A model generated the notes under the pieces. The model ran no database searches and had not been told where the DNA came from. It was given only the letters and a program-made list of their open reading frames with translations. A stretch of DNA of 64,000 nt from Lyophyllum atratum (Eukaryota > Basidiomycota > Agaricomycetes > Agaricales > Lyophyllaceae): the NCBI GenBank assembly GCA_014905825.1, contig JACGCN010000059.1, positions 1-64,000 on the forward strand, written 5' to 3'. The position numbers and the translations under genes are program-made. The first letter of the stretch is position 1, and the number at the start of each line of letters is the position of its first letter. Of this stretch, positions 52,797-63,213 are shown piece after piece.

Positions 52797-54169
52797 CTAC
52801 GCAGTCTGGGGAGCGGTATGCTTGAAGCGGACGACGATGACGGTGACATTATCCGTGGTATGATGCGACAGAGCATGCTTCAGGAGTTTCGCGCTAGCTG
52901 CTTGTGCATCGCCGATTTCACTTATCAGGTCGATAGCAGCTTGGTCGTTGACGACATCCCATAGCTAGCAAAATGCAAGTCAGAACCAGAAAACGACAAG
53001 GCACGGGATTACTTACCCCATCACAAGCCAAAACCAGAAATTCGTCCTCGTCGCAGAGTTCCGTCTCAGTAGTATAAGGCGCCCCGACCACAAATTCCTT
53101 CATGGAGGAATCTCCCAGACTCCGCGTGACAGCGAGCACACCGTTCACGCGTCCGCTCATCACGAACCCGCCAGCGTCCGTTATCCGCTTCGCCTCTTGC
53201 TTATCAGAGCCCTTGTGGTCATACGTTAAGCGGACTGCTTTCCCAGAACGACATAGCACCGCCCGCGCGTCACCCGCGTTTGCGGTATACAGCACGCGCC
53301 TTGAATCGGCAGGGGGTATAGTAACAGTTGCACCAAGTGCGCCTTCTTTCCGCAAGGCACTAGGAGACGTCGAGCGGGGTGTCGAGGGAGTCGATGTGCT
53401 TGGACTCGAAACACTGCCTGCGAGACTCTTCAGGGCTTTCCTGATCCGGCTGCTCGATGATTTCTTGTTCTTAAGCTTCTTAAGATCGGCTCCTGAGTTG
53501 CTATTGCTCTCCGCTCCGCTGCTTTGTGCGCTCTCGTGGCCGTTGCTCTGTCCCGAAACCGGCGAATCAGAGATGGGCGATGATGGGGTTGCACTTATAA
53601 ATGATTGAAGTCCGTCGGCGTCTTCAATCCGCAGAAAGGCTGTGACTGCAGTACAGCCGGAATGGATCTTCCCTTCGGACTCTTCACACATTATGGAAAG
53701 GCTCTCGTCGACGTTGTGGAAGGTCTCGTTGAGGATATCGGGCACGGGCGTGGTTGGGGAGCTGTGCAGAGCAGATAAGAGGAACTATGTTGCATATCAG
53801 ATAACCGCACAGTGCAGAGCTTTTGGTCGATGCGCACCTCGTGAAAGTGAGCTCCACAACATTCTGCGGCATGCTTGCCGGCGTGGCCGTCGAAAACAGC
53901 GAAGAAACCCTGCCCTCGAATGTTGTCGAAGTCGACGACAAACGAGTGGGAGTCTTCCATTGTTCTTCTTGCTCCCTTGTCTTCGGAGACGCCAACCTGG
54001 TACGCTGGGTTCTTCGCCGCATGTCGGTTGAGGATCTAGGAGGTTGGCAACGCGATGAACAGTATGTCAGGAGAATACTTGGCGTGGAACGTACTCCGTG
54101 GGTATCGAGCTCAACCGTGGTAATAGACTTTGAACGTGCGTTGGGAGAATCGGAGAATCGAGGTGGCAT
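52797..54169 (-). CDS. PP2C-type Ser/Thr protein phosphatase, copy 1
   Basis: This is a metal-dependent PPM/PP2C phosphatase. Four exons (54095-54169, 53838-54035, 53017-53784 and 52797-52964) give 402 residues. Metal and catalytic motifs are complete: MEDSHSFVVDF, FFAVFDGHAGK, SGCTAVTAFL, YTANAGDARAVL, LTYDHKGSD, VTRSLGD, ACDGLWDVV and TDNVTVIVVRF. A Ser/Lys-rich insert of about 90 residues (53250-53550) interrupts the domain. Copy 2 at 61.9-63.2 kb shares the 198-nt exon and intron positions, so the two arose by tandem duplication. The mobile element now lies between them. The acceptor at 53785 was chosen because it alone links FHE to LLSALHSSP in frame. Confidence 0.93.
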
Positions 54170-54559: not shown

Positions 54560-54562
54560 CCG
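54560..54562 (+). repeat. Candidate 3-bp target site duplication, CCG
   Basis: CCG immediately precedes the left CACTG terminus, and CCG at 58686-58688 immediately follows the right CAGTG terminus. Three bases can agree by chance about once in 64 tries, so this supports but does not prove transposition. Confidence 0.5.
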
Positions 54563-54989
54563 CACTGCGGGCATGGGCTTATATATCCCCCGCTTTTAGT
54601 TAGAATATATTTTGATGATATTTGAAATAAGTTCACCCATTAATCTGCAGAGAAAATATGGAATATATTTTCGATATCTTCAGACACATGTCCAAGGTAA
54701 AATCGACGTCTTCATCAGGAATATATTTATGATAACATCAGCTTTTAGCCCTTGGTAAAATTCTGATTAATATTCCATGAAAGCGACAGATGATACATTG
54801 AACGCATTGTGATCGAAGATCGAAGAATCTATCTCTTATATTAGTGATCTTGAAGCATCGGATGTATGATGATCTTATTCAAAATACAATCCAACGTGTT
54901 GTTGAACGTTGAGCAGGGTCGGGTCTGTTTTCGGTAATTTGTCGAGCATTGTGGCCGGGGTCCCTGGCGCCCCGTGTAAGATCTGTGAC
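54563..54989 (+). repeat. Left long inverted repeat of the mobile element
   Basis: About 427 bp match the reverse complement of 58247-58685, with a few substitutions and small indels (for example, TATATATCCCCCGCTTTTAG here against TATATAGTCTCCGATTTTAG there). It is AT-rich, with repeated AATATATTTT motifs, and ends inside at GTGTAAGATCTGTGAC. No ORF of note. Confidence 0.9.
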
Positions 54990-55154
54990 TTGCATTTCCG
55001 TAATAAATTGAGTCCGTGACACGAGCGGGGTCTCCATGAAAAATATCTCCCACCTACAAAAAAGTTGCGAGGGCGCCGTAACACAGCGAAGGGCCGTAAA
55101 ATGCTTTGCACTTGCGAAAAATCGCTTGTGAAGTCACGTGATCGTCTGATCTGG

Positions 55155-55545
55155 GCCCTTGGCTGGCATAGATCCCTCAATAACACCCGGGGGGTCAACC
55201 ACTAAGCTCTGGGTCATGTACTATTCATTTTAAGTACCTGTATGACCCTCTACATGTAGAGATTAGATACACAGCATATGTGGAAGCTACATAGTACATA
55301 ATCTGGTATTCTGTTATCTGACTCGGGCTGTAAACAATTGTAAACAATGCGCCGGGGTTGGCATGAATGCCTCTACAACATCCGGGGGGTCAGCCACTAA
55401 GCTCTGGGGTACACACTATTCGCTTTTAGTCACATTCAGGACCATATACATGTAAAAATTAGAAACACAGCATATGTGGAAGGTATACAATCTGGCAACC
55501 TTGGTCTCTCTTTCCTGTTTGAGCATGTAAACACCTGTACACAAC
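55155..55545 (+). repeat. Two tandem copies of a unit of about 195 bp
   Basis: Copy 1 (about 55155-55349) and copy 2 (about 55350-55545) share a core with CCGGGGGGTCAACCACTAAG and the block CACAGCATATGTGGAAG, and both end near TAAACA...ACAAYGCGC. Identity is roughly 75-80% by eye. Subterminal repeats next to an inverted repeat are a known feature of CACTA-type elements, where they bind transposase. Confidence 0.7.
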
Positions 55546-55594
55546 GCGCTCGACGCGTTGAATCCAATCAACAGACATTGCCATCAACACCACC

Positions 55595-55812
55595 ATGCCT
55601 GAGTATCACCAAATCCTTCGCCCTATGCTGGCTGCCCCTACAACCCTCACATTGTACCAGGTAAGTATCTCTATATTACCTTCAAAAGCTTCTTATTTGT
55701 ACTAAGACGACCCTCTGATACTCTATAGTCTTCTTTCCCTTCTGACCAGAATCCCTGCGCTAACACCCACCAGGACGCCCTCCTCTCCTTGCGTAGGGAT
55801 GTGGACGAGTGA
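55595..55812 (+). CDS. Possible 49-aa spliced ORF inside the mobile element
   Basis: ATG at 55595, 22 codons, then a strong GTAAGT donor at 55661, a CTATAG acceptor at 55728 and 27 more codons to a stop at 55812. Both exons are in phase 0. No domain or signal peptide is visible. It could be the 5' part of a captured gene or a chance combination of good splice sites. It is included because the donor and acceptor are unusually good. Confidence 0.25.
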
Positions 55813-56000
55813 AGAACAATTCCGTCATTCCTCCCAACCGCTTTGGTGGCCGGAGCCGCTCCTGCTCCTGCACGCCTCACGCCTCAATGCTGCCTGCCAT
55901 ACCGAGAAGCACGCACCACTGACAAGCTTGCCACTTCTCTAGCACACGACGGAATGGAACTGACGAGTCAGACGGGGCTGCAGAAATGACAGGGCAGACC

Positions 56001-56338
56001 CATGAAGTGGGAGAGCCGGCATGGTGCGTTCAAGGCCCTGTACTGCACGACCACTGACTCCGCCCAACACCATCCGCTCCACAGCCCCATCGCCATTCGT
56101 ATCGCGACCAGCCATCCTGCCAGCCTCCTCAAGACCGAAACTGACTGCAGCGCCGACAGTCAATGCGCCGAACATCAATTACAGCGCACACGAACACTAC
56201 CACCACGAGCGCCGCCCTCAACGACCTCAGCACGCCGCCAGCCCAGCTTTTCCCGTCGCACCCGTCGCAGCTGACCGGAGTCGATCGCATTTCCAGACCC
56301 TCCAGCCCCAGCCCCAGCCACTGCCCATCATGCACTAG
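56001..56338 (+). pseudogene. Pro/His-rich coding-like fragment inside the element
   Basis: An open stretch with biased codon use encodes a Pro/Ser/His-rich segment ending PQPQPLPIMH. No partner exon or domain was recognised. It may be part of a captured low-complexity exon. A second overlapping frame is also open, so coding is not certain. Confidence 0.2.
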
Positions 56339-56626
56339 CTCAGGTCCTGGGCTCCGAGATACCTGCATGGGTGGGGGCGGCTAGAGCAGGGCGGGTGTGA
56401 TGTAGTTATTTTTAGATGTATAATGTACCATTTTGCAACCGTACTGGGCGCTGCATAGTTAGACAGTAAGGCATCACCATAGGGTTGGTGGGTGAGTCAC
56501 TGTGTGCAAGCAGGCAAGGATGCATCACTGGATGTTCTACGGGAAGGTAAAAGTCGTCGTTTATTACGGAACCTCAAACTATATTACGGAACAGGAATTT
56601 ATTCTACGGAGTAAATTTTCCCCACT

Positions 56627-57066
56627 TTGACCAGCATAGATGGAAAGGATAAGGAATTATGGTCGTATAACTCACCGCGGCAGGACTCGATGTGTGAGCG
56701 AACATGCAACAACCCGTCCGACGCGAGATACTCACTGGATGCTTCCGTGGCGATGCCAGACAAATGGGCCCGCCACACGGCCTTCCAGAACTGCTGCGGC
56801 CCCACAGAAATCTCCAGCTGCAACACCGTCACCCCCACGCACACGCCCGGCGAGCCCCTCGCCATCGGGACGCCCATCCCCAACACCAACGTCTACATCC
56901 TCGCCGGCGGTATGGGTGTGAGCAGCGCGGGTGCAGAGGCGTCCCACTCCCACTCCCCCCCTCACCCGCATCCCAGATAGACGACTGCGACCCGCTCGCA
57001 GACCGTTTCGGCATCAACGGCCGCCCAGGCAACGAAGGCAGCGACGGCGCATACACATCTTGGAGG
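56627..57066 (+). pseudogene. Fragment of an AMP-binding adenylation domain (NRPS type) inside the element
   Basis: The translated stretch MPDKWARHTAFQNCCGPTE followed by LAIGTPIPNTNVYIL corresponds to the adenylation-domain core around motif A5 (N-x-YGPTE-like) and the loop after it. Only about 80 residues are preserved. There is no start, no other A-domain motif and no thiolation or condensation domain. A separate exon-like block flanked by AG and GT follows (56976-57066). It is best read as a captured and decayed piece of a host nonribosomal peptide synthetase or a related adenylating enzyme gene. Confidence 0.6.
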
Positions 57067-57074
57067 TACGGTGA

Positions 57075-57656
57075 TCACCCCAGTCTCGTGCCCTTGCCCC
57101 GCACAGTCGCAGACGCATCATGTCCCGACGCACCTCCCGCTGCACTCGCAATCCCAAGCTTCCGCGTAGCCGTGTCCATGGACTCCGCGTCGTCCATGCG
57201 ATTCCAATCCTCCTCCTCGCCCGTGCTACTACTTGACCGTCCCGAGGCAGTGCGCACCTGTATATGAGAGCGGTTCGTCTGGTGGTAGTGGTTGTGTTCC
57301 CGTAACTCTGGCGGGAGATCAGGCGAGGCAGGTTTAGCCTGACGGAAGATGGAAGCGAGGGAGGGACGGCGTGGGGATGGCTTGCTGGCGCTCGAAAGCG
57401 AAGAAGGACTGTAAGGCGATGTTGGCCGATCGAGACGTACTGAATCCGGGCCCGAGCTAGTCTTGGCGTGTCTGCGGCCTTGGGTGGGTGGCACCCGTGG
57501 ATGGGGGTCCCGATGGCTATCCATCGAAGAGTTATCCATCGTGCTGAGCGACGTGGTTGACATCGGCACCGGGTTCGGTGGCCGGGGTGGCAGCGCTCCC
57601 CACTCTTGAGAACGCTTGAGAGATCGAAGCACATCCCTCAACCCCGTCATCCCCAA
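57075..57656 (-). pseudogene. Ser/Pro-rich coding-like fragment inside the element
   Basis: A 193-codon open frame rich in Ser, Pro and Arg (RRPSLASIFRQAKP, SSSSTGEEEDWNRMDD) looks like the disordered part of a fungal signalling protein. It lies just downstream, in the same orientation, of the histidine-kinase fragment, but that fragment's normal continuation is absent. It may come from a different source gene. No catalytic domain is present. Confidence 0.3.
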
Positions 57657-57713
57657 CCGACTTGTAAAGGATGTGAATTAGTATACGGAACGAGGATGGA
57701 AGAAAAGACGTAC

Positions 57714-57980
57714 TCTTTGAGATGTCCAAGATGTCCTCAATGATAAAAAGCAGTGACCTCGCCAAACTGTGCAGTGTGGACAAGCAGCGAACTCTCCCGC
57801 AGGGATCGATTGAGGTCCGAGTCCAGCGTCAACTCGGTCATGCCGATGATACCATTCATGGGCGTCCTGAGGGAAGTACTCAACGTCAGTCAATGCAGGT
57901 TTCGAAAGAACACACGGATGGCATACCTGATCTCGTGGGACATGCTCGCCAAAAACTCGGACTTACTCCTGTCTAACCTC
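57714..57980 (-). pseudogene. Fragment of a hybrid histidine kinase (HisKA phosphoacceptor region) inside the element
   Basis: SKSEFLASMSHEIR is joined across a 62-nt GT-AG intron to TPMNGIIGMTELTLDSDLNR, the H-box of fungal hybrid histidine kinases with its phosphoaccepting His. Shortly after, the reading frame breaks: LLVH is followed by a few extra bases before SLARSLLFIIEDILDISK resumes in another frame. No ATPase or receiver domain follows. The preserved intron shows it was acquired as genomic DNA, not cDNA. It is therefore a decayed captured gene piece, or the stump of a resident kinase gene destroyed by the element. Confidence 0.7.
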
Positions 57981-58246
57981 CCTCCAACCTGTTTGAAAAG
58001 CCGCCTGCGACCCCCTCGGTATGTGTGATTCGGCGTTGACAGTGTATAGTCTTGATGAATGGCTTGGCAAGTTGAAAAGAACTCATTCTGTCCGAGTGAG
58101 AAGGTAGGGATAATATGCGTGGACCGCGGTCCGCCAGATCAGGCCGAGGATACGGGGCTCGGGGCCGTCTGCAATGTCGGACAAACCCATGTTCAAGACT
58201 TCAAGTTGACGACTGTGTACGGAGCAGTCGATGGGCAGGGGTCACG

Positions 58247-58685
58247 GTCACAGATCTTACACGGGGCGCCAGGGACCCCGGCCACAATGCTCGACAAATT
58301 ACCGAAAACAGACCCGACCCTGCTCAACGTTCAACAACACGTTGGATTGTATTTTGAATAAGATCACCATACATCCGATGCTTCAAGATCACTAATATTA
58401 GAGATAGATTCTTCGATCTTGCGATCACAATGCGTTCAATGTATCATCTGTCGCTTTCATGGAATAAAATTAGGAATTTAATCAGAATTTTACCAAGGGC
58501 TAAAAGCTGATGTTATCATAAATATATTCCTGATAAAGACGTCGATTTTACCTTGGACATGTGTCTGAAGATATCGAAAATATATTCCATATTTTCTCTG
58601 CAGATTAATGGGTGAACTTATTTCAAATATTATCAAAATATATTCTAACTAAAATCGGAGACTATATAAGCCCATGCCCGCAGTG
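58247..58685 (-). repeat. Right long inverted repeat of the mobile element
   Basis: Reverse complement of the left repeat over about 439 bp, with scattered differences and an additional short AT insertion (TTAGGAATTTAATC region near 58470). It ends GCCCATGCCCGCAGTG at 58685. Confidence 0.9.
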
Positions 58686-60040
58686 CCGTTAGGTAATAGG
58701 CACCACCGAGATCTCCTGGGCGCCATCATTCGATCGGTCACACAATAGCTTTTCCTCAACAATACACCCAAAGGTGTACGTAGGGGTACGTAGACGTCGA
58801 CTTTGCACCGAGCCGCGTCATGTCGCTCGCCTCTCCATTGCCCTGTGAGTTCATGATCATGTCAATTTACAGCCTTCGAGCTGTATGCAGAACTCCCAAA
58901 TTGTTTCCGGCTTCATACATAATGGGGTACTAGATATTAGCCAATGTCGCATTTGGCCAGCGCTGGCCAGCAATATGTGTACGCTGTCAAGCTCGAGAAA
59001 AATAATGTGCTGCGCTTGGGGTGGACCCACTCCATTATGATCAATGTAACACTGGATGTCCTAATTTGCTGGCTACCTTTGTTCAGACTATGCATCTCGG
59101 CAACGGCACCTCCGACTCAGGCCTACACCGGATTGGGCTGTTTCTAAGTTGAAGTAATACTCCTAGCTGGTTGTGGTGTTCTAAGCTCCAAGATTACATG
59201 CTCTTTCTGTTGCAACCTGTTGATTCAAAAGGACTGGAGCCTTTCCATTCCCTGTGCTTTCATGATTCCGTCCGCGGCTGGTCATATCCACGGGGAAGGT
59301 GATTTGATTTCAAATCTAGTCTGCGCACGCCCTTCGTTTATTTTCAATGGGATTCTACATTTTACTGATCCAGCATAATTTTTAACGGAGGCGTGCTGCG
59401 GATTCTTGAAACTGCGCAGCAATTTTTTAGAGGGTGACTTACACGTTGAATCTACTTGGCGGCGGGTGCGCATGTCATCGCATCCATTATTATCTTCTCA
59501 AAAATTTTAACCACCAATATAGGGTACTCCGGTGGCGACAACATTACCGACACCTGCTGACTTGGAGGCGATGCAGAGCACTAGATATGGATACTATCTA
59601 GTCACTCCAAAACTGCAACCTACGTATGAGGATCCGGAAAAGCAATGAACGACGGGCAGCGTTGGTTGACGAATGTTGATAAAGTAGGATCTGGGAGGAG
59701 TGAAGAGCTCATGAGTTCACACTCAGTCGGAGATCTTAGCCTTTTGTACACAATCCACTCAAACCTTGACCAAGACCAAGAGTCATTGAGCTTTGGAATA
59801 ATCACTTACTCGAGCGACGCTACCGCGTCTTTTCACGTCGGACATATAAATATAAGTAGAAGACAGATGGTCTCCGCACTGACATAGAATTAGATAAATG
59901 CATTGGGTATACAAGGACGCCACAACGTATTGGGCGATGTTTGACAAAATATGTTCTAGCCATCGCTGTCAACGAAGCCAATGCCAATGAGATAACTGCT
60001 GAAAAGATTACAATGTACGTACCAATGTTCCGGGTCACCC
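58686..60040. other. Gene-poor tract right of the element
   Basis: About 1.35 kb without a supported gene. A 67-codon ORF at 58944-59147 begins with a peptide (YVYAVKLEKNNVLRLGWT) that faintly resembles the start of a GIY-YIG/T5orf172-like domain, but nothing continues it. It may be a relic. Confidence 0.35.
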
Positions 60041-61873: not shown

Positions 61874-63213
61874 CTATGTCGCCCCCGCATGCTTGAAGCG
61901 TACCACCATTACTGTAACATTATCGCGTGTTCCATTTTCGAATGCGTGGTCCATAAGTATCTTGCTGGCCACCTGAGGATCCTCAGTCCCTCGAATCAGG
62001 TCAACAGCTTCCTGATCTGTAACAACATCCCAGAGCTAGAGGGAGAGATCAAGTCAGAAACGCTTCATCAGGTTCGGGAACTGCACTAACCCCATCACAA
62101 GCTAAAATGAAAAATTCCTCCTTCGCTGTCAGCTCTGTCCTGGACGTATAGGGAGTCCCAACAACATATTTCTTCAGTGAGAAGCCATCGTGGGCCTCAT
62201 GATTTCCCAGACTTCGTGTTACATTTAAGTACCCAAGAACGCGTCCTCGGAAGATGATGCCATCTGCTTTCCTCACACGATCGATTTCAGTCCTTTCCGA
62301 GGCTTTGTGGTCATAGGTCAAACGCTCCGCGCGACCATCCCTGCAAATTACCAGGCGAGTATCGCCCACGTTGGCACAGTACAGTACCCGTCTAGCTGTG
62401 GAAGGAGGAGTGATGGCTTCGACTTTTGGTGCAGAAGATATTGGATTGAGAGAATCGTTCAAGACCGAAGGGCCAGTGGCGAAGGACTGACCCCCATCAG
62501 CGTCTTCGATTCTGAGGAAGGCAGCAACCGCGGTGGACCCTGACGCCGCCATAGTCGCAGATGCCTGAGATAGCTCTGACAAGTCGTCATCCATAGAACC
62601 AAACATCGCGCTTAACACATCTGGGGTGGGTGTTTTAGGTTTTTCATGGATATGTCGCAGAAGGTGCTGGATTTGAATGGACATTGTAAGGGATGCACTG
62701 TGGGTCCCCGAAAGAGGGAGCCCGGCACAAAAGCGGACACACCTTGTGAAATTCAGCGCCACACCACTCAGCAGCGAGCTTGTTCCCGTGGCCATCGAAC
62801 ATGCCAAAAAGCCCCTGTCCGCGTATTGAATCAAAATCGACTATAAATCCATAGCTGTCTTCCATAGTAGCTCGTGGTCCTTGGCTATGGGAGATGCCGA
62901 TTTGGTAAGATCTATTCGTGGCTGGGTGTTGATTCAGGGTCTGACAGAACATCATTATACGCGACTCAGACGCTGCGGAGACGACGCACTCCGTATGTGT
63001 CATTGCTTCTCGCGGTTGTTATGGGTTCAATATGTGCATTCACGGAATCACTATCGCACAGAAAGATTATAAGGACGAAAGATAAAAATGGCGGAGTGCG
63101 CCACTCACAGAGCGGGGCCGGGGGTACTGGGCGTCTCAGGATCTGATTTCAGATTAGATGTCAACCTACATTGCTGGTAAAGCAGGTTCCTTACAGTTAT
63201 CTTGAGACTGCAT
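61874..63213 (-). CDS. PP2C-type Ser/Thr protein phosphatase, copy 2
   Basis: A paralog of copy 1 at 52.8-54.2 kb. Six exons (63195-63213, 63109-63142, 62990-63050, 62743-62940, 62091-62666 and 61874-62035) give 349 residues. The 198-nt exon and the introns after FHK and after ACDG match copy 1 exactly. Motifs: ATMEDSYGFIVDF, LFGMFDGHGNK, YCANVGDTRLVI, LTYDHKASE, ACDGLWDVV and RDNVTVMVVRF. Two positions differ: the GCT of the SGCTA motif is GST here, and VTRSLGD reads VTRSLGN, so an acidic residue conserved in active enzymes is Asn. The Ser-rich insert of copy 1 is mostly missing. Activity may be altered. The 19-nt first exon was chosen because it supplies the only in-phase ATG. Confidence 0.88.

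Follow-up and report, generated by a model that had tools for sequence, protein, structure and literature searches.

A gene-fragment-carrying CACTA element in the mushroom Lyophyllum atratum and its large transposase-bearing relatives

The stretch of Lyophyllum atratum DNA analysed here, termed the window, comprises 64,000 nucleotides (C107:1-64000, contig JACGCN010000059.1) of a genome of 64.76 Mb in 151 contigs. It contains a 4,123-bp element (54563-58685) that is very probably a non-autonomous member of the CACTA (EnSpm) superfamily, excised and inserted in trans by a tnp2-type transposase from relatives 40-54 kb in length. An initial annotation, made from the sequence of the window alone, had proposed a Pack-type CACTA carrier of this kind, and the ends, target duplications, donor genes and relatives described below all support that proposal. 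Two features go beyond it: the transposase-bearing relatives reach 40-54 kb, and the ends of most elements look homogenised. The wider family makes the finding more interesting than the 4.1-kb element by itself.

The termini of the element are CACTGCGGGCATGGGC...GCCCATGCCCGCAGTG, flanked on the left and right by CCG, and the span 54560-58688 takes in both triplets. Its inverted arms (54562-54989 and 58247-58686) consist of segments of 209, 63 and 174 nt with complementarity of 97%, 89% and 99%, respectively, and a single gapped alignment of the two ends matches at 95.4% over 439 columns. The inverted repeats of about 430 bp, CACTG/CAGTG termini and bordering CCG triplets first described are thereby borne out. 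Subterminal repeats are usual in CACTA elements without defining them; here a single pair of direct repeats was seen, within the inverted repeat (44 nt, 70%, at 54660 and 54718). The annotated lack of a transposase also held, in that tblastn with a 559-residue transposase piece from a relative (E 1e-3) found no family transposase in the window. On contig C108 the corresponding site is uninterrupted, with one CCG and complete identity extending over 40 bases in either direction, and the right flank of the element matches it at 94% over 2.3 kb. This contig is probably allele-like, representing the other haplotype of the same assembly. Indeed, the assembly probably contains both haplotypes, as suggested by the right-flank copy and by the occurrence of each of three cargo donors as two loci of similar identity. 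The empty site with a single CCG anticipated by the initial annotation was therefore located in this assembly, probably on the other haplotype, and not in a related strain.

The element belongs to a family, as had also been anticipated. A genome search with its left repeat gave 39 matches: 16 facing pairs account for 32 of them, and the other seven, on C1 (four), C103 (two) and C24 (one), are incomplete or rearranged. A search for the 23-bp terminus with up to three mismatches gave 44 sites, 35 of them exact, and none with a reversed-pattern control. The paired elements range from 4.1 kb (in the window) to 53.9 kb (C119b), the 12 with no transposase match among those listed being 4-23 kb long. 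An exact 3-bp duplication borders all 16 pairs, a 4-bp duplication none; upon shifting the right boundary by 1-8 bases as a control, only 0-3 of the 16 pairs agreed. With all 16 joined flanks used as one query, uninterrupted counterparts matching at 82-100% across the junction were recovered for 13 elements (Table 1).

Transposase genes are present in four of the 16 elements, which provide the full-length CACTA relatives sought for the window element. Three of these (C67, C63 and C60) represent one element of about 40 kb at three sites, and the fourth is C119b. A 559-residue transposase open reading frame (ORF) of C67 is 100% identical in C63 and C60 and 72% identical in C119b, whose ORF matches Transposase_21/tnp2 (PF02992) at 2.9e-10, above the cut-off. 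Contig C1 also has transposase pieces at 93%, carrying stops, some 1.5 kb away from family ends. Among the matches listed, none to the transposase falls in the other 12 elements, so that the window element would have been moved in trans; the tnp2-type transposase of its 40-54 kb relatives would be the protein that acts upon it. Database relatives of the C119b protein number 289 at a threshold of E 1e-3, and the organisms named among the matches listed (120 of 289) are Agrocybe, Hypsizygus and Candolleomyces, all members of the Agaricales. In an alignment of 19 sequences the first D is conserved in at least 90% and the second D and C-x2-C are invariant, and the second ORF of C119b and C67 contains HAALH or HVALH followed by FYERYINFF. 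This order of motifs is that described for CMC transposases, which are defined by D, D, C(2)C, H(3-4)H and E (PMC12730594), and the residues concerned are the putative catalytic residues of the family transposase. Ratios of nonsynonymous to synonymous substitution (dN/dS) between C67 and C119b are 0.11 and 0.04 for two ORFs, with dS saturated.

The three copies of the 40-kb element (C67, C63 and C60) lie between different flanks, with duplications of TTA, TTA and TAA. As a DNA search with 10 kb of C67 recovered neither its own source nor any long stretch of C63 or C60, identities were taken from pairwise alignments covering about 10 kb of C63 and 2.5 kb of C60, out of some 40 kb. In these, C63 is 99.5% identical to C67 over 8,744 bp (12 mismatches), with about 430 bp extra in C63, and C60 is 99.9% identical over 2,501 bp. 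Across 10 kb of the C67 body, C119b sequence aligns in the same order at 81-93%. Pfam assigned no family to ten further C67 ORFs.

Host-gene fragments lie in both orientations within the window element, as first annotated, and three donor genes could be placed in a search that covered this element (Table 1). The donor ORF on C46 for the 147-bp fragment belongs to PF00501, and the 692-residue donor ORF of the second fragment has no Pfam match. The histidine kinase fragment retains the GT..AG intron of its donor, so the captured material was DNA rather than RNA. C119a also contains fragments two and three, at 90%, suggesting that cargo has been moved or copied along with the element. The cargo was probably acquired through DNA repair or through template switching at short homologies.

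Table 1. Features of the window element (window coordinates) and of related elements (contig coordinates)
Feature	Position	Strand	Remarks
Target-site duplication CCG, left	54560..54562	.	Single CCG in the uninterrupted C108 copy
Left terminal inverted repeat, 427 bp on this side	54563..54989	+	Conserved core formed by the outermost 23 bp, CACTGCGGGCATGGGCTTATATA
Stretch common to dispersed loci on C102, C13 and C2	55066..55617	.	86-90% identity
Second piece matching the C102, C13 and C2 loci	56531..56641	.	81-88% identity
AMP-binding (adenylating) enzyme gene fragment, 147 bp	56757..56903	+	Donors C46:334538-334684 (95.9%), C13:1089630-1089776 (94.6%)
Fragment of gene with 692-residue ORF, 721 bp	56942..57662	-	Donors C79 (88.6%), C75 (88.3%)
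Overlap of 5 bp, CGACT, at fusion point of fragments two and three	57658..57662	.	In both the C79 and C35 donors
HAMP-HisKA-HATPase histidine kinase gene fragment, 313 bp, intron kept	57658..57970	-	Donors C35:7338-7644 (82.1%), C116:13870-14158 (81.9%, from 57677 on)
Subterminal stretch of long end	57973..58246	-	Similarity of the right end to 12 ends from other elements continues past the repeat
Right terminal inverted repeat, 439 bp on this side	58247..58685	-	Inverted-arm and end alignments
Target-site duplication CCG, right	58686..58688	.	Boundary check of flanking bases
SPT5-like gene	C67:475205-476212; C60:102168-103175; C63:359623-360630; C119:1964800-1965807		NGN-KOW
Elements with uninterrupted counterpart			C107, C119a, C77a, C62, C77b, C64, C114, C35, C46, C67, C63, C60, C119b

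The long ends were compared in 13 elements, C63, C60 and C119b being left out of the counts. Repeats within one element are 82-100% alike and 370-582 bp long. Over 350 bases the two ends of an element are mutually closest in ten of the 13, and a tree of the 350-base alignment pairs an element's own ends in ten as well. One end is shared for at least 40 bp beyond the repeat with seven or more other ends, and the opposite end with no more than two, again in 10/13. At the right end of the window element, three of the four matches shown extend to 713 bp from the terminus, and that of C119a continues further through shared cargo. The mutual closeness of ends argues, with moderate weight, that one end has often been recopied from the other, the stopping point probably differing among lineages. 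Recopying of one long end in most lineages would yield near-identical repeats whose length varies by element.

Several observations weigh against one or another part of this account. Mobility is deduced from comparison of sequences rather than from observed movement. The 559-residue transposase piece of the C67, C63 and C60 type has no Pfam match of its own, and the C67 piece is linked to transposases through its identity with C119b and a below-cut-off DUF4218 match in the next ORF. Three of the 16 elements (C82, C77c and C130) gave no uninterrupted counterpart in the joined-flank genome search; the counterparts of C62, C35, C67 and C63 are other copies of a repeated flank rather than alleles, those of C46, C119a and C77a deviate by about 14-20 bases from the joined-flank length, and base-by-base inspection was confined to the junction in the window. 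Microhomology as a feature of capture would likewise be represented by a single junction. With regard to the ends, C77a, C35 and C46 are exceptions to mutual closeness, and in many cases the difference amounts to one or a few bases (97.3% versus 96.7% for the window element). The tree leaves the ends of the window element, C35 and C46 unpaired and gives the C77a pair a support of just 0.44. The pattern of one long end is absent from C82, C46 and C67, and C77c and C130 show it mostly through a short overhang. Elements of one lineage are, moreover, non-independent in the count of this pattern.

Other explanations account less readily for the data. The length of the repeat in itself could reflect a segmental inversion or an assembly duplication of one region, and a rearranged cluster on C1, in which three ends have the same flank, is of a kind that such events might leave. 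Against this stand the exact 3-bp duplications in 16/16 pairs, the different flanks and the uninterrupted counterparts for 13/16. The single-CCG site on C108, together with the duplications, led us to reject this explanation, which the initial annotation had named as its refutation and which we regard as exceedingly improbable. An origin from another cut-and-paste superfamily such as Plavaka or KDZ is scarcely more credible. Both are abundant in the genome (73 and 109 matches, respectively), and the decayed end on C24 has a weak Plavaka match at a distance of about 5 kb. However, among the matches listed no Plavaka match falls inside the 16 pairs and no KDZ match in C67, C63 or C60, and the sole KDZ match listed inside any pair (C119:1999167) is separated by about 5 kb from the C119b tnp2 gene. 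No complete Plavaka or KDZ transposon with CACTGCGGGCATGGGC ends was seen, and copies of the Plavaka locus on C103 and C73 each have one CACTGCG, no CGCAGTG and no long inverted repeat. Published Plavaka ends, TGT..ACA or CATCA..TGATG (PMC12730594), differ from those of the family, and on these ends and the positions of the matches such an origin was rejected.

The route by which gene pieces entered is less constrained. In a model proposed for Arabidopsis Pack-CACTA (PMC13317346, PMC8903248), they would be gained through a hybrid of two neighbouring copies rather than by repair or template switching. Two elements, C77b and C77c, do lie just 3.8 kb apart, and the ends of C77b are one C62-like and the other C77c-like, as such a hybrid might be; yet a single pair of neighbours does not prove the model. 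The window element has its donors on other contigs and carries short fragments, with a 5-bp overlap where two of these meet. We consider the hybrid route an unlikely, albeit a serious, competitor of capture by repair or template switching, which remains our preferred interpretation.

All four transposase-bearing elements also carry a 337-residue NGN-KOW ORF (Table 1) that matches the SPT5 chain of a PDB entry (9j0n_Z, residues 189-527) at 8e-30. This SPT5-like gene has 28 matches in the genome. On C67 one of them lies some 8 kb away from another transposase relative, and two, on C66 and C92, are roughly 3 kb distant from KDZ genes; judged by eye, most others are not close to any transposase among the matches listed. 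A family end on C122 has an SPT5-like match 13 kb inside it. Relatives occur in other Lyophyllaceae (Tephrocybe rancida and Sphagnurus paluster), and dN/dS is 0.25 against a 65% relative and 0.31 between C67 and C119b. The SPT5-like DNA of C67 and C119b is 96.8% alike whereas their transposases differ at 28% of residues, which suggests modules with separate histories. A structure model of the protein, based on four sequences, was of low confidence (mean predicted local distance difference test score, pLDDT, 40.5), and a transposon-borne SPT5 was not found in the literature among the titles listed. One might speculate, as an idea with the odds well against it, that CACTA in the Lyophyllaceae constitutes a giant cargo-moving system of 40-54 kb, with the SPT5-like factor as a selected passenger (perhaps for transcription through, or escape from, host silencing) and new gene carriers founded by one long end copied across captured host DNA.

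Host-gene DNA is not peculiar to the window element: five of the 12 smaller elements (C107, C119a, C35, C46 and C77a) either show it themselves or have the sequence in common with one that does, the cargo of the other seven having been sampled by Pfam only. The 22.7-kb element C46 contains an ATG4 gene (Peptidase_C54, C46:967437-969058) that is near-complete by profile coverage (positions 4-275), and C35 contains a part of ATG4 (positions 187-275); probable host ATG4 genes are on C141 and C127. Other ORFs of C35 have MIOS and APH domain matches and lie in stretches common to C77a at 81-86%. Sampled ORFs of C119a gave mainly coiled-coil matches, and those of C82, C77a, C64, C130, C77c, C114, C62 and C77b fell into no Pfam family. 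Long ORFs surrounded by direct repeats of 321-323 bp suggest that LTR (long terminal repeat) retrotransposons are probably nested within C114 and C46.

Additional loci bear traces of the family. The rearranged cluster at C1:1653874-1726234, in which one flank is common to three ends, has broken transposase pieces adjoining two ends and a different tnp2 match in the duplicated flank. Single family ends at C141:290789, C122:112136 and C68:782607 have an identical 25-base flank, and their partner ends were not found in the search with the 23-bp terminus. Related facing ends at C24:1076814-1077076 (263 bp) and C71:768835-768983 (149 bp) resemble miniature elements. The joined flank of the 40-kb insertion at C63:355208-395704 resembles, by eye, a tRNA gene. 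In the window itself, two pairs of direct repeats (70% and 83%) connect 52818-53107 with 61889-62181, about 9.07 kb apart, and perhaps represent paralogous genes on either side of the element.

Taken as a class, the family has the CACTR...YAGTG termini of CACTA elements, as CACTG...CAGTG in 15 of the 16 pairs and CACCG...CGGTG in C119b, together with 3-bp duplications and a tnp2-type transposase identified in C119b and related at 72% in C67, C63 and C60. Short inverted repeats, which are usual in CACTA but do not define it, are replaced here by repeats of 370-582 bp in which the outer 23 bp are most conserved. The window element further has the attributes of Pack-TYPE elements, being non-autonomous and carrying host-gene fragments with donors, captured at the level of DNA. 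The family ends are not Plavaka termini, and no Starship captain appeared as a Pfam match in the sampled ORFs, no captain profile having been run. One element compared below is from Cryptococcus neoformans, also a basidiomycete.

The significance of these observations lies in finding CACTA gene-fragment capture in a mushroom. A single assembly holds the donors, the empty sites and the source of transposase, which makes the family a ready system in which to test gene gain. Recopied ends, if true, would offer a testable route to new carriers. The initial annotation had regarded gene capture by such elements as little described in basidiomycetes. Capture as such is not new there, since Pleurotus Helitrons do so (PMC4289320); the narrower statement stands, in that no gene capture by a fungal CACTA was found among the listed titles and abstract starts of a search outside which most subscription journals fall. 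Its view that the repeats far exceed the class norm is upheld by the 13 bp of Tgmt*, a soybean CACTA (PMC2613891), and the 24 bp of CNIRT6 from Cryptococcus (PMC12810828). With respect to size, the largest CACTA elements available for comparison are 20.5 kb (PMC2613891) and 16-20 kb (cited in PMC6431247); the copy of about 40 kb at three sites, near-identical over the 10 kb and 2.5 kb compared, suggests that a classical DDE transposon can move far more DNA than about 20 kb.

Among known systems, Tgmt* is likewise large for a CACTA, with the tnp2 transposase and target duplication of 3 bp also seen here, but has asymmetric subterminal repeats besides its short inverted repeats and is about half the size of the giants described here (PMC2613891). 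CNIRT6 shares the CACTG ends and a CMC-type transposase, but is about 7.5 kb long, and cargo is not mentioned in the accessible part of its description (PMC12810828). The enlarged EnSpm elements of Chondrus crispus are likewise oversized, with additional ORFs, but smaller than those in L. atratum, and gene-fragment carriers go unmentioned in the part of the source available (cited in PMC6431247). Animal Pack-TIR elements, for which gap-filling and FoSTeST models have been put forward, resemble the present family in gene capture and breakpoint microhomology, in other hosts and other elements (PMC8277862). Starships are also fungal, span tens of kb and carry cargo, but depend on a tyrosine-recombinase captain (PMC13066641), in contrast to the tnp2 (DDE-type) transposase and 3-bp duplication seen here. 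Plant Pack-CACTA and Pack-TYPE elements have the same combination of CACTA ends, no transposase and several host-gene pieces (PMC8903248, PMC13317346); the family described here differs from them in residing in a fungus, in its repeats of 370-582 bp, in carriers of 4-23 kb and in transposase-bearing relatives of 40-54 kb.

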